Part shown: positions 53,194 through 59,374 of the stretch, piece by piece
Numbering within the stretch: the first letter of the stretch is position 1
Layout of the letters: each line of letters begins with the position of its first letter
Source of the DNA: Physcia stellaris
Lineage: Eukaryota; Ascomycota; Lecanoromycetes; Caliciales; Physciaceae
DNA length: 64,000 bases
Assembly: GCA_018902385.1 (NCBI GenBank)
Contig: JABSSW010000003.1
Span: 806,001 to 870,000, forward strand
Direction: 5' to 3'
Made by a program: the position numbers and the translations under genes
The notes under the pieces: model-generated
What the model was told of the DNA's origin: nothing
Databases searched by the model: none
What the model saw: the letters and a program-made list of their open reading frames with translations, nothing else

Positions 53194-54188
53194 AGACTGC
53201 ATTTGCTGTAGTCAGATGGAGCCAAGTGAGTGGAAATTGGATGATGACACTGATGCTTCCGAGTTATGAGAGATGATATCTTTTATTCGCGTTCAGCAGC
53301 GATGAAACAATATTCCCCCCTAAATTTATGCAGCAAAATTGCCTTCTTTCGGAGGCTGTCTATAGAATGAATACCAAAACATACGCTCCTGCCAGGATGA
53401 CACCTTTGCAAGCCTTATTCTAGTGTCAGTGCTAAAAGTGTTCTCTCAGGTCCTGTCTTGCCCAGCCCATCCTTCCGACCTCGAATCACTCGCTCCGTAC
53501 TAGATTGAGTGCCGAATCATTCTACGCAATGCTTCACATCACTGTCACGCGATATCGAAAGTGAATCAATGGTAGGGAGACTAGGGAAGAAGATTGATCA
53601 TCGAATTGTATTCCATCAAATCTATCTTCTGCCTTCCAAAGCCGGCAGTCTGCTTGACCAACGATTTTTATGGAGCACGCGGCAATTACCGGATCACGTG
53701 TCAGTTCAGTAATCACGGAAACGGCTCCGCGGGCCTTGCGTCAAACGGATCTAGGGACTCCACGGATTTTGTTTACTTTATTCAACATGCATAATCCACC
53801 CAGGGTTGACATCATCGCAATTCGGTCCTTCACTGCTCGAGCGAGTCTGCCAGCAAGTGCGACCCAAGGATTGCTCATGTACTAATCTGGCAAGACCGCG
53901 TCATTTGTTCCACTGTCGGCTCTTTCCTGACAACTTGAATCATTCAAGTGTTTTTCTCAATCCCCGCTCCTCCAACACTGATAGCGTTCGCTATCAGGCC
54001 CTCTTCACATTCACGTAGCTTACATGATCACAATCAGTCACCGGAAACCGAGTGATTACACAATAGCATGACTTGGGAAATACGTCAAAGATTAAAGCTC
54101 CATTCATGTTTATTTGCGTTCTGAATTCCAAAGACCGGCAACCTTGATATCTTTCATCGGCACTCAATCTTGTCTGGGGGGGCTGGTC
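53194..54188. other. Intergenic, containing a diverged copy of an intron element at its right end
   Basis: No gene recognised. From about 54020 to 54180 the sequence resembles intron 5 of the downstream gene (listed separately). Confidence 0.55.
54020..54180 (+). repeat. Diverged copy of the intron-5 element of the downstream gene
   Basis: Blocks shared in the same order with 56149-56380 include acatgatcacaat, cttgggaaa/cttggggaaa followed by acgtc, tccaaagac, aaccttgat and ctttcatcggc. The last is followed by ctcaatcttgtctggg here and ctcgattttgtccggg there. The copy ends just before the start codon and lacks the common intron 3' end. It could be a 5' UTR intron, a decayed insertion or the source sequence. 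Confidence 0.7.
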
Positions 54189-57100
54189 ATGAAAATGAGT
54201 CGTAGAGAGGAGGGGACTGACATCCGACCCATTCTCTCACCACTCTCGGAGACCACTACTTGCAATCCACTGGACGGCCGAAATCAATCCAGGCCAAATA
54301 AAAAGCGCACAGCTACGAATTGGCCAGGGAATCGGACACAAAGCTCTAAGCAAGGTGGAAGGATAAGTGGTACGAAGCCGAGTTATGACGCGGATCCCTA
54401 TGGCAGATTCGCGGTTGGCAATGACAATTATACAACGAAAGGAAAAGTCGACAAAACAAGTGGCAGGCTTGATATCAGCGTGAACGAGACTGCAAACCGT
54501 GGATATCTGGCTAAGGCCCTTTCTACCTCATTGAATCACCATCTGCTTCCGAAATCCGGTCTGCATGATCAATCGCACCGGCAGCCGCCAACAAGGACTC
54601 AAGACAGTGGTCTTCGCCGACCTGACCTTGGCTCACGTCTGTCCACAACTCTAGGCCTCCCCAGTCTTGACGACTTCTCATCAATTCCCGTCCTCAATAT
54701 TGTGATTATGGTGATAGGCAGTCGGGTAAGTAGATCTTTTAGGTCTTAATCCAACGCTTACCCCAGAGTGGCAATGCTGACTCTGGAATCCCCAACAGGG
54801 CGACATCCAGCCGTTTCTCAAAATAGGGAAGCTACTTAAGGAAGATTATGGGTAGGTCTTCTGTTGGTAGCTTTCCCCTTTTTCCGAGTCACTCGGAAGG
54901 CTGAGCTAGGAAAAATCTCAGTCTCAAAGCTACTTCTCATACGCATATGCAACACCTAAAGTCCAAAGTCAAGAAACCTTAGTCATATATCAACAACAAT
55001 ATGCTGTTTGCGGTAATCAATCTTGTCCGGGGCCAGTGGCTTTTTTCTGGGGTTTTTAGGAGAAGCTTGTCCTGCAAATCAAGGCCTACATTATTCTGGC
55101 AATGCTGACTCTGGGATCTTCAACAGACATAATGTTCGTATCGCTACACATCCCGCGTTCCGAAAATTTGTTGAAGAAGATTGTGGTTTAAGTTTCTTCT
55201 CTGTGGGAGGAGATCCTTCGGGTACGTGTTTTTGGCTCCTTCACTGCTTATATTAGCTTCCTTAATCGAAAAGACCAAACGTCCAAGCGATCAACTCAAG
55301 TTGAACTCTACGCTTACCCGAGATTGGGAATGCTGACTTCAGAATCACCCATAGAATTGATGGCATTCATGGTCAAGAATCCAGGCCTGATACCATCTGT
55401 GTCCACGATATGGGCTGGGGAGATTGGCCGCAGGCGAGATGCTATGTTCGAGATGTTTCAGGGGTACGTATTTTCGGAGCCTTATTCTTTTCCCGGCTCC
55501 TCGATTGAATGTCCAAGTATCAGTCAAGCCGTGGCTTATCCCATGCACTGGTGAAGGGTGGCACGATCGCTGTGAAATCGTAGAAACGTCAGGACGACGT
55601 TGGAAGTCAGAACGCGCTGTATGGGCATCGGAAAGTTTACCTGAGCCGATAGTGCCATCCCAGTACATGGGTTATTTGATCAGCCCAATGGTTACTCCAG
55701 AGTGGGATTGCTGACTTCGAAATCACGAACAGTTTCTGGCGAGCGTGTATAAACGCAACGGATGACGAAAATAATACTTCGAATCTCCGTATGATGGGCA
55801 AGAAAAACCCTTTCGTGGCGGACGCAATTATCGCCAATCCCCCCAGTTTTGCTCATATCCACTGCGCGGAGGCTTTGGGTATCCCGCTCCACCTAATGTT
55901 CACGTTTCCCTACAGTCCGACACAGCAATTTCCACATCCTCTGGCAAATATCAAAACGAGTAATGTTGACCCAGGATACACGAATTTCATGTCGTATCCC
56001 CTTGTTGAGATGATGACCTGGCAAGGCTTAGGTGATTTGGTCAATCGTTTTCGCGTCAAAACGCTTGGTCTTGAACCGGTTTCCACGTTATGGGCACCAG
56101 GACAGCTGTTTCGTTTAAAAGTACCGTACACCTATCTATGGTCTCCAGGTACGTATCGTCCATACTCAATTGCTCACATGATCACAATTGTTCACCAGAA
56201 GTCAAACGAACAAGTGATAGCCCGACTTGGGGAAAACGTCGAGTCTAAAATTCCTCTTTTAATCCTTACTTCCAAAGACGAGAAACCTTGATCTAACCAG
56301 TGATTATCTTTCATCGGCGCTCGATTTTGTCCGGGCGAGTGCCCGAGATTTCAGATTACTGACTCTGATATCACGAATAGGTTTAATACCGAAGCCACCA
56401 GACTGGGGCTCAGAGATCGATATTGCGGGATTCGTGTTTCTTGACCTTGCCTCGTCGTTCGAACCACCGGAGAGCCTCAGCAAGTTTTTAGACGAAGGAG
56501 AACCTCCCGTGTATATTGGCTTCGGAAGCATCGTCGTTGATGATCCTGACCAATTCACAGAACTCATCTTCGAAGCCGTTAAACAAGCGGGAGTCCGCGC
56601 TCTTGTAAGCAAAGGATGGGGTGGCCTAGGTGGTACGTACTTTTGTAGCTCAATTGTCACCCGAAAATGGAATGGGAATGCTGACTTTGAAATTTGTGAT
56701 AGAGGGGAACACTCCTGGCAACGTCTACATGCTTGAGAACACCCCTCATGATTGGCTTTTTCCACGTGTTAGGGCAGTCGTACATCATGGGGGAGCTGGA
56801 ACAACAGCCATTGGACTGAAATGTGGCAAGCCTACCATGATTGTACCGTTCTTTGGCGACCAACCTTTCTGGGGTGCAATGGTAGCCAAGGCCGGTGCTG
56901 GTGCTGAAAGTGCCATTCCCTACAAACGACTTACTGCCGAGACTCTCGCAAACGGGTACGTGCCTTTCCAGACCCTCCTTTTCTTTGAGCTTATGGAATG
57001 GAATGGAAAAGCTGACTTCGAAATCGCACCTAGTATCGGACAATGTCTCTCCCTCGAAGCGAAGCGCAATGCCGAGCAGATAGCTCACGATATCGAAGTG

Positions 57101-58558
57101 GAAGGTGATGGAGCACAGAACGCAGTTGAAGCATTTCATCGTCACCTGCCCTTGTTTGGGGAGAACACTATGCGCTGCTGTATTTTCCAGGACCGGGTAG
57201 CAGTCTGGGTCGTCAAGGACACTCGGTTGACGCTGTCCAGCCTTGCAGTTGAGCTTCTTGTTAAGAAGGCAAAACTCAAGTGGCGGGATCTGAGGCTGAC
57301 AAGACATTGTGACTGGAATGACTTCGAAGGGCCAGGAGAACCAATCACGGGTGCCGGTGCTGCACTGGCGAAATCTTTCGGGGATATCGCCAAGGGTGTT
57401 GGCAGTGTTCCTGTGAGATGGGCAAAGAGTCTCAAGAAGCATGAGCAAGACAAGGACGCGAATGATGCGGCTGGCCGTCCACGGAATAACAACACAGAAA
57501 CCTCCTCGATATCTTCAGATAACAGTCCATCAACTGTTGCAAGGGAGTCTCAAGCCATCGAAGACGCAAATGGGGATGAGGTTCGCCGTCTTAGGAATAA
57601 TACAGAAACTGCCTCGCCATCGTCAAGTGATAACAGTTCATCAGAGAATATTGCGCAAGAATTAGCAGAGGAGACAGGGAAGGGCTTCGCGAAATCGGGC
57701 CAAGCTTTGGCAAAAGTTCCTATGGATCTCTCCCTGGCGATTGCTCAGGGGTTTCACAATGCTCCACGTCTCTATGGCGATACCACCGTCCGACCCACTG
57801 CACGCGTAACGGGCTTCCATTCTGGCCTTCGAGCTGCTGGCGAAGAACTCGTCTTTGGTGTCTATGATGGTGTTACCGGCCTGGTGCTTCAGCCATATCA
57901 TGGAGCGAAGCAGCACGGAACACTGGGGTTCTTCACCGGTATCGGTAAAGGCCTTGGTGGCTTCGTGTTGAAAGATCTCGCTGCAGTGATCGCACCGGTC
58001 GCATACACGTCGAAAGGAATTCACAAAGAACTAACCAAAGGTAGACAGCCCACAGCATTCGTCCGCCGGGCTCGCATCTTTCAAGGCCATAAGGAATTCG
58101 GAGCACTAGATGAGGCCGCGCGACAGCGCTACGAACAGCAGGTCGAAGTCGCGTGGAAATTGGTACGCGAGATCACGGAGGAGCTGGAGCCGAACGGGAA
58201 AGAAGGGCTTCAAGGGCGCATACGCAGAAGATGGGAAATGCGCAAGCTGGACAGGCAAGGCGCCTTCAAAGGCAGCGTATGGTCGGCCAAGAAAACGGTC
58301 GAAGAGAGACAGAGATCAAGATTCATCAAGGATGGTGGGAAATCCGGAAGGGGAACGTCGCGAATGGTTCGGTCCAAGCCTGACAGGCGAGACGACCAAG
58401 CGAATGGTCATACCCAGCAGAATCCGGCGCAGAACGACACTGGGACCCTCACAGACAGCGGTATAGCTGAAAGCCCTCCTGCGACCGACATTTCGACTAA
58501 GGAACTCCATCATCCTGACCCTGGAGGCAATGACTGGGAAAGAAACCAAGGAGATTAA
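54189..58558 (+). CDS. GT1 glycosyltransferase, sterol 3-glucosyltransferase-like, with lipid-transfer-like C-terminal region
   Basis: Exons 54189-54725, 54799-54851, 55127-55221, 55355-55463, 55733-56148, 56381-56632, 56703-56955 and 57034-58558 sum to 3240 bases, 1079 residues. The N-terminal region is disordered ([20 protein letters not shown]). The GT28-like acceptor domain begins [20 protein letters not shown]. The UDP-sugar domain carries [32 protein letters not shown] (signature segment [10 protein letters not shown]) and [10 protein letters not shown]. These are the hallmarks of fungal UDP-glucose:sterol glucosyltransferases (Atg26/Chip6 relatives), but the PH-GRAM domains of Atg26 are absent. 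The C-terminal 400 residues contain amphipathic, Gly-rich segments ([33 protein letters not shown]) similar in style to the VPS13/ATG2 C-terminal region. The sterol acceptor is inferred by family. All seven introns share one 3' sequence. Confidence 0.92.
54726..57033 (+). repeat. Family of seven sequence-related introns (introner-like)
   Basis: Introns: 54726-54798 (73 bp), 54852-55126 (275), 55222-55354 (133), 55464-55732 (269), 56149-56380 (232), 56633-56702 (70), 56956-57033 (78). Each ends in a version of tggnaatgctgact + tcgaaatcacgaacag. In all seven the CTGACT block lies exactly 16 bases before the exon. Five start GTACGT; the others start GTAAGT and GTAGGT. The longer ones also share internal blocks, for example tccaaag..gagaaacctt and ttgtccggg in introns 2 and 5. 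CTGAC is the expected branch site, but the shared flanks go beyond splice-signal consensus. Confidence 0.88.
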
Positions 58559-59374
58559 GGGCAACTTGGCAACATGACCGCCTTTGAGCAAGGAGAGCCT
58601 TATCATGGAACGGAGTGGTAATGACATAGACATCGTCTTTTAGCATGCATGATACCCAGGGGGTTTGGCTTATGGGAGCATAGCGATGGTATTGGGGTCG
58701 TTCATCGATTAGGTAGATAGTGAGGCCAGCACCCGCCCTAGACGGTGTGAAATCGGCGTTTCCCTTCTCTGGGCTGTACACTTTTGTGAACATGAGTGGA
58801 TTGTGCAACTTTTGTTCTTCCCATGTCTGCCTACCGTTTGTCTGTTAACATTGTTTCTGCTCTTGGAGTCGTCGGGGCTAACCGGCGTCCCTATTCCCGT
58901 GCCCATTAGTGCCAGAAACGAAGCATTTGATATCGCAGCAAACCATCTAGATGATACAATTCCGAGTTTCTTTCGTGTATTACCTACTCTATATACCCTC
59001 TCACGCATGTGCTCGCCTCATATGTACAAAAGCCATGACCTCCCAAATCGAACCCCGAAACTCCGCTACATAATGGATAGCAAAACCTCCGATATTGCAA
59101 AAAAGTGGTATCACTGCGCCCCAAAAAATCAGATGAACAAGTAGGCTTTTTTTCCCCATCTTTTTTCTTTCCGGGTATTACCGCTGTCGTTCGTTTGCGT
59201 ATTGTGCATAGATGTGTGCTTGAGCTGGGCTGAGCGCCTTTTCCTCGGACATTTCAGCATAATTACCTCCCCACACCTCTCCCCCTTTTTTTCTCTCTGC
59301 TTCTTCTTCTTCGTAGTTAGCCGGGCCGCTTCCTCGAGTTATCTTCCTATTTGTCTTCCACGCTCTCCCTCCGC
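58559..59374. other. Intergenic
   Basis: Convergent 3' flanks of the glycosyltransferase and the Kelch gene; T/C-rich at 59145-59320. No gene seen. Confidence 0.55.

Follow-up and report, generated by a model that had tools for sequence, protein, structure and literature searches.

Seven introner-like introns in a sterol glucosyltransferase-like gene of Physcia stellaris

The host gene and its seven introns

The DNA analysed here, hereafter the window, is a stretch of 64,000 nucleotides (C3:806001-870000) from the 44-Mb, 147-contig genome of Physcia stellaris. Its forward strand carries a gene whose product resembles sterol 3-beta-glucosyltransferases. Once seven introns are removed from 54189-58560, a single open frame of 1079 residues plus stop remains, and it is from this frame that the splicing of all seven was deduced. 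The product contains glycosyltransferase-28 and UDPGT-type domains (Pfam PF03033, PF06722, and PF00201), and its top match in the PDB is the sterol 3-beta-glucosyltransferase 5xvm (E 7.7e-73), followed by 5gl5. The introns were compared with a model, R1, built from an alignment (A1) of 26 introns, none of them from the window; A1 comprises 26 of the 31 copies with a donor at 136-152 nt, with L027, L044, L057, L071:374, and L075 omitted. The features of the locus are as follows, with R1 ranges given in model positions.

54022..54179, + strand: MITE copy just 5' of the start codon (80% to positions 38-164 of the MITE consensus, E 4.9e-26; the piece 54152-54179 has E 0.13)
54189..58560, + strand: host gene, sterol 3-beta-glucosyltransferase-like (8 exons, 1079 residues plus stop; presumed start codon)
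54726..54798, + strand: intron 1, introner-like, internally shortened (73 nt; R1 93-146, E 7.7e-10)
54852..55126, + strand: intron 2, introner-like, probably with a degenerate MITE inside (275 nt; R1 71-146, E 8.8e-10; R1 1-48 at only E 0.75)
54956..55037, + strand: probable MITE remnant (right part) in intron 2, left border uncertain (repeats D4 and D6)
55222..55354, + strand: intron 3, full-length introner-like element (133 nt; R1 1-146, 44.3 bits, E 9e-13)
55464..55732, + strand: intron 4, introner-like, interrupted by an inverted-repeat insert (269 nt; R1 94-146, E 2.3e-8; R1 1-47, E 0.013)
55536..55675, strand not assigned: inverted-repeat insert in intron 4 (arms 55536-55551 and 55660-55675, 13/16 complementary)
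56149..56380, + strand: intron 5, introner-like, mostly replaced by a MITE (232 nt; R1 match at 56248-56380, E 0.0023)
56175..56340, + strand: MITE copy in intron 5, right end kept and left end lost (71% to consensus 37-216, E 6.8e-18)
56633..56702, + strand: intron 6, introner-like, internally shortened (70 nt; R1 89-145, E 1.5e-7)
56956..57033, + strand: intron 7, introner-like, internally shortened (78 nt; R1 113-141, E 7.3e-4)

The original prediction for this DNA held that the seven introns share a 3' block, with CTGACT always 16 bases from the exon, and that five of them have the donor GTACGT. Indeed, exactly 16 nt separate CTGACT from the exon in 7/7 introns, and GTACGT is found in 5/7, with GTAAGT in intron 1 and GTAGGT in intron 2. 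The shared block, tggnaatgctgact, is well matched in six introns and poorly in intron 5 (TCAGATTACTGACT, which differs from the 30-mer by 5 mismatches). All seven introns are matched by R1, with best E-values between 9e-13 and 2.3e-3. In intron 5, nhmmer detects introner sequence only over roughly the last 40 nt (12.7 bits). Taken alone, this intron is a weak family member in the R1 search, as is intron 2 in its 5' part. All 9 R1 rows up to E 5 within the 64 kb fall inside the seven introns, which, at the sensitivity of R1, agrees with the earlier statement that introns of this kind occur in none of the window's other genes. Rfam gave no matches in 53800-58700 at gathering thresholds.

It had also been claimed that the long introns share inner blocks. 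The sharing is real, but the blocks are other repeats and not introner sequence. A genome search with the repeat in intron 5, which aligned copies show to be a MITE, gave 23 further rows, 22 with an E-value under 1e-7. From the 20 loci fetched out of these 23 rows, 8 records yielded a consensus of 216 nt with the inverted ends ACTCGCCCC and GGGGCGAGT; duplications flanking the MITE were judged by eye. Intron 2 probably contains the same element. Its repeats D4 and D6 match the MITE copy upstream of the gene over 31 nt (68%) and 28 nt (71%), respectively, and a right terminus is found at 55017-55037 (86% over 21 nt, E 0.46 in a search of the window); we call this MITE only probable because the traces are weak one by one. 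The remaining window rows of the MITE search, at E 0.038 or worse, are no better than the intron-2 trace. The insert in intron 4 is a different element. When 55536-55675 is cut out, two partial R1 matches (35.5 and 11.9 bits) become one match over positions 1-146 with 46.3 bits; among four cuts tried, this one and 55533-55676 gave a full-length match, and two wider ones did not. The whole of intron 4 found only itself in the genome. The MITE in intron 5 and the different insert in intron 4 thus show that the introners have themselves been hit by other elements.

A genome-wide family and its insertion sites

A genome search with the 3' consensus, which the original prediction had proposed as a check, found the 30-nt block at 86 places in 44 Mb when up to 3 mismatches were allowed, with no match for the control. 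The 14-mer TGGNAATGCTGACT has 45 matches in the genome and none when read backwards, the 5' block alone has 48 (control 2), and the middle block alone has 29 (control 0). The union of the genome-wide searches amounts to at least 156 places on many contigs, or 168 including model matches in fetched DNA, all of these being sequence matches of which only part were checked as introns. The union includes 42 of the 43 rows of the consensus search and, from 22 subfamily rows, the 6 that no other list contained; both searches give minimum numbers. The consensus used for genome search and folding was typed with ambiguous positions filled with a likely base. Pairwise recapture estimates of the family size are 139, 251, and 294, which are rough because they assume independence, an assumption violated by decayed copies.

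For closer study, 85 of the 86 30-mer places and 44 of the 45 14-mer places were fetched (C7:194706 was left out). In 60 of the 84 3'-block matches in fetched DNA, a donor lies 95-160 nt upstream and the copies align over their whole length with internal gaps. The donor distances peak at 141-150 nt, the full-length unit measures ~146 nt, and the aligned copies have one donor at the start and one acceptor at the end. A subfamily of ~129 nt has at least 22 rows including the query, the best other copy reaching 93% among the matches listed; the closest pair among the matches listed, a C19 and a C23 copy, is 93% identical. The R1 search for copies covered 92 sources, from which overlapping loci and L085, a near-duplicate of L076, had been omitted, and returned 116 rows, 113 of them unique, at least one of which (L008, minus strand) is a reverse-strand match of an element already counted. 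Subtracting the 4 window rows from the 80 of the 113 rows with both ends leaves the set of 76 copies used below. R1 found nothing up to E 1 in 25 loci (28 kb) that had been retrieved for unrelated purposes; one further such locus, a paralogue of the host gene on C13 (L109), carries a match. An 18-nt block had no matches in a scan of viral contigs, and an exact 15-mer of the 3' block had none in the literature searched, which says little. Two loci, L028 (C43, 1291-1618) and L097 (C21, 624-820), hold tandem chimeric introners, in which one copy breaks off close to its branch site and runs straight into the inner part of a second copy; in L028 a further donor-like GTACGT comes right after the AG, and the model match is weak (E 0.075).

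Ordinary ancestral introns could look alike around the branch site through splicing constraint, and the branch site TGCTGACT is the most conserved stretch of the family (0.84-1.00 per column), as such a reading would have it. However, the similarity runs from donor to acceptor over ~146 nt, the 5' and middle blocks each find the family alone, and the ordinary introns of a second paralogue, on C35, give no match to R1. We therefore regard ordinary ancestral introns as scarcely credible. The candidate that the 3' block is the common intron end of this genome was rejected on the 86 places and on the retrieval of the family by either of the other two blocks alone; a common intron end would be expected to give thousands of matches in 44 Mb. 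The seven introns are introner-like elements of a real, genome-wide family. The original prediction of such elements is supported by this family, by its full-length unit, by sites that are empty in three paralogues, and by the lack of a consistent target-site duplication.

The three paralogues in the same genome lie at C13:690588 (62% identity), at C35:384-385 kb (59-63%), and at C3:117.7 kb (37-42% in the search and 34% over 419 positions in the alignment). All seven intron positions are empty in them, and their frames run straight across; at the position of intron 6, the alignment to the C13 and C35 genes has a two-residue gap. Read by eye, the C35 alignment shows an ordinary intron that lies 8 nt upstream of where intron 5 sits. 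The single intron of the C13 gene in the compared stretch lies at another position and is itself an introner (L109:2515-2647, E 8.2e-8), in which CTGACT again stands 16 nt before the exon. By comparison with these genes, the seven introns would appear to be recent gains. The paralogues could instead have lost old introns, for example through cDNA, and all three are indeed intron-poor over the compared region. This would, however, require the loss of all seven in three genes, and the C35 gene keeps other introns while the C13 gene has its one introner elsewhere, which leaves loss very improbable.

The 76 copies with both ends show no consistent target-site duplication. When the exon end is compared with the intron end and the intron start with the exon start, repeats at the joints number 16 for k = 2, with 16 expected, and 5 for k = 3, with 5.2 expected from permutation; the best of 49 offsets reaches 5/76 at k = 3, where 1.2 are expected per offset, and 2 at k = 4, and the offsets give none for k from 5 to 8. 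In 53/76 copies the exon before the element ends in G. After splicing, the flanks are fully open in 36/76, compared with 16, 11, 10, and 16 for shifted acceptors and 3 for unspliced sequence. The other 40/76 are not fully open, a point against the interpretation given below; flanks may enter other introns or gene ends, so that 36/76 counts the true introns incompletely. When open frames over the joint are compared over 60 nt on each side, the longer one lies on the strand of the element in 42/76 copies and on the other strand in 12, with 22 tied.

These sites bear on whether the introners moved as DNA, that is, as a non-autonomous inverted-repeat element whose ends double as splice sites. The family consensus is largely inverted-symmetric, and most families outside ascomycetes have DNA-type signatures according to passages of Gozashti et al. 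(PMC9860276). No consistent duplication was found in the 76 copies, either at the joints or at the 49 offsets, and the frame prefers the strand of the element by 42 to 12, although only splicing-competent orientations may survive. On balance, movement as DNA seems unlikely, though it deserves more weight than intron loss.

Probable repeated insertion, fold, and decay

The original prediction had suggested that the introns multiplied locally within the gene. One intron copied inside the gene by unequal exchange or gene conversion would account for seven copies in one place, for the similar 3' ends of introns 1 and 2, and for intron 1 being the second-nearest relative of intron 4, and the tandem chimeric copies on C43 and C21 are in line with such events. 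Yet over the last 48 positions of the model the seven introns average 0.658 in identity, and sets of seven drawn at random from the other copies average 0.630 (sd 0.038), with 24% of these sets reaching the within-gene value; for 7/7 introns the nearest relative lies at another locus. The seven thus resemble one another no more than random copies do, which leaves local multiplication unsupported, and even given the limited power of a test on only 48 decayed positions we consider it highly improbable, slightly more so than loss from the paralogues.

Insertions are nevertheless clustered. Among the 86 block matches, 22 pairs lie within 3 kb of each other, compared with 0.5 expected for points placed on one uniform line, and 7 remain without the host gene, compared with 0.44. 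Other dense places are found on C7, with four within 2 kb, and on C3 near 1.17 Mb, with three. These counts suggest that certain genes are hit repeatedly from a common pool. The C7 locus (L012, C7:60883-63912) has its four introner matches on one strand. In a pyruvate carboxylase gene on C28 (L048, C28:96500-98500, at ~945-1130), two introners surround a 5-nt exon, GTGAT, which is required for the frame and for the conserved Y-S/T-G-D stretch.

The family consensus folds at -54.2 kcal/mol (z -5.7; 0/200 dinucleotide shuffles as good) into an outer and a long inner stem, with a small hairpin at the side. The consensus from the 116 model rows has the same fold (-57.4), and its reverse complement reaches -53.8. 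Near the donor, TTTCGGAGCA pairs with TG-A-CTCCGAAA near the acceptor, leaving the branch-point A as the sole unpaired base; the ends are complementary close to the termini, with the last two bases unpaired. In single copies, the median z is 0.03 over 66, and 4/66 fall below -2. Pairing in the copies matches independent decay of the columns in all four helices (0.731/0.723, 0.617/0.633, 0.539/0.543, and 0.642/0.626), and RNAalifold predicted no pair on 26 copies. Maintenance of the fold by selection after insertion was therefore rejected as an explanation, and the fold was presumably a property of the founder, as single copies, paired columns, and RNAalifold show no retention of it; it does not seem to be needed for splicing. 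The younger 129-nt subfamily lacks much of the inner stem, and the consensus of 9 of its copies has a terminal stem but reaches only z -1.07, which argues against a need for strong folding in recent movement. Shuffles kept dinucleotides for the z of the family consensus, and base content only for those of the single copies and the subfamily.

The copies have decayed to a mean identity to the consensus of 68% (81 long rows). Repeat-induced point mutation (RIP) was discarded as the cause of decay, as its bias is absent from the change counts: C>T is seen in 70/359 CpA versus 276/1586 elsewhere, and G>A in 91/702 TpG versus 221/1409 elsewhere. Scoring 39 of 2644 candidates gave one 5.8S match (L146, C41:45899-46052, including flanks), and the rDNA copy that holds it is strongly AT-rich and RIP-like.

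Taken together, the seven introns are very probably seven separate, now decayed insertions of one introner-like family into the sterol-glucosyltransferase-like gene. The founder would have been an intron of ~146 nt with its own donor GTANGT, branch site, and AG, whose ends and middle were self-complementary; like the consensus, its RNA, or one strand of its DNA, would have been able to form a long stem in which the branch-point A is the single unpaired base. Copies would enter exons mostly after G, with no detectable target-site duplication and with a tendency towards the splicing orientation, as the joints in part indicate, and would presumably be spliced out from the start. They would afterwards drift independently and lose the fold, the state in which the present copies are found. 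The host gene would have been hit repeatedly from the genome-wide pool, with no copying inside the gene. Later, a MITE would have inserted into intron 5, and probably also into intron 2, and intron 4 would have received another inverted-repeat element.

As for the route of insertion, the likeliest would be that the excised, folded intron RNA is returned to transcribed DNA, either through reverse splicing into an R-loop or because a break captures it. We give this route, in its details, an even chance: it builds on the absent duplications and on published models, and a self-complementary consensus would suit a DNA element as well.

Introners are shorter than the length on which RIP acts. Tentatively, and with a chance that we put somewhat below even, insertion might be steered to hot genes, with a pool of a few hundred copies hitting the host gene seven times, the C7 locus four times, and the pyruvate carboxylase gene twice. 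The same reading would include a self-complementary founder, would explain the reported lack of terminal repeats in ascomycete introners by decay after insertion, and would hold that a length below the range of RIP may let introners multiply in these fungi.

The origin of new introns is a long-standing question. Seven separable insertions beside paralogues that are free of them represent a series of intron gains in one place, and, as apparently separate insertions of a self-copying family, they make the host gene an unusual spot for studying how introns arise. That the fold shows in the consensus and has gone from single copies gives a hint of what the mobile form had and of what splicing can do without, and the clustering makes insertion into hot genes testable with data on expression, R-loops, and chromatin.

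Comparison with known introner systems

Among the closest known counterparts are the introner-like elements (ILEs) of Dothideomycetes (Torriani et al. 2011; van der Burgt et al. 2012; Collemare et al. 2015, PMC4457414). As described in passages of PMC4457414, these are similar spliceosomal introns in unrelated genes that form families of different age, are longer than ordinary introns, occupy positions that are empty in related genes, and decay rapidly, in all of which the present family resembles them. In those passages, four genes are described with two ILEs apiece, and a single peroxidase gene has been hit in three species, whereas the gene studied here has seven recognisable copies. The state of preservation also differs: pairs of ILEs are 98-99% identical, whereas the main founder has here decayed to copies with a mean of 68% to the consensus.

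A second group comprises the symmetrical sister stwintrons and cropped sister introns of Hypoxylaceae and Xylariaceae (Fekete et al. 2021, PMC8469720; see also a 2025 paper, PMC12403724). Going by excerpts of PMC8469720, these too are proliferating ascomycete introns with inverted symmetry and seamless integration without target-site duplication, their symmetry is lost in older copies, and paralogues without the intron exist; three genes of one strain have two such introns each. They derive from donor-disrupted twin introns, with terminal repeats of 45-55 nt around TTTCTAGAAA, and are described there as having no site preference. By contrast, the present family consists of single introns of ~146 nt with more copies and with G as the last exon base in most of them.

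A survey of introners across eukaryotes (Gozashti et al. 2022, PMC9860276) reports, in its relevant passages, 5 to more than 2,000 copies per family and genome, and describes the ascomycete families as an outlier without terminal inverted repeats or duplications. Like the surveyed introners, ours are multi-copy introns in genes, with a copy number within the reported range. Duplications are absent here as in the ascomycete outlier, but complementary sequence is found close to both ends of the consensus. No earlier report of seven introners in one gene turned up in a limited search of the open-licence literature. Set beside the published families by their descriptions, the present one fits the ascomycete kind in most testable features, and it looks like a further family of ascomycete introners with an extreme host gene.
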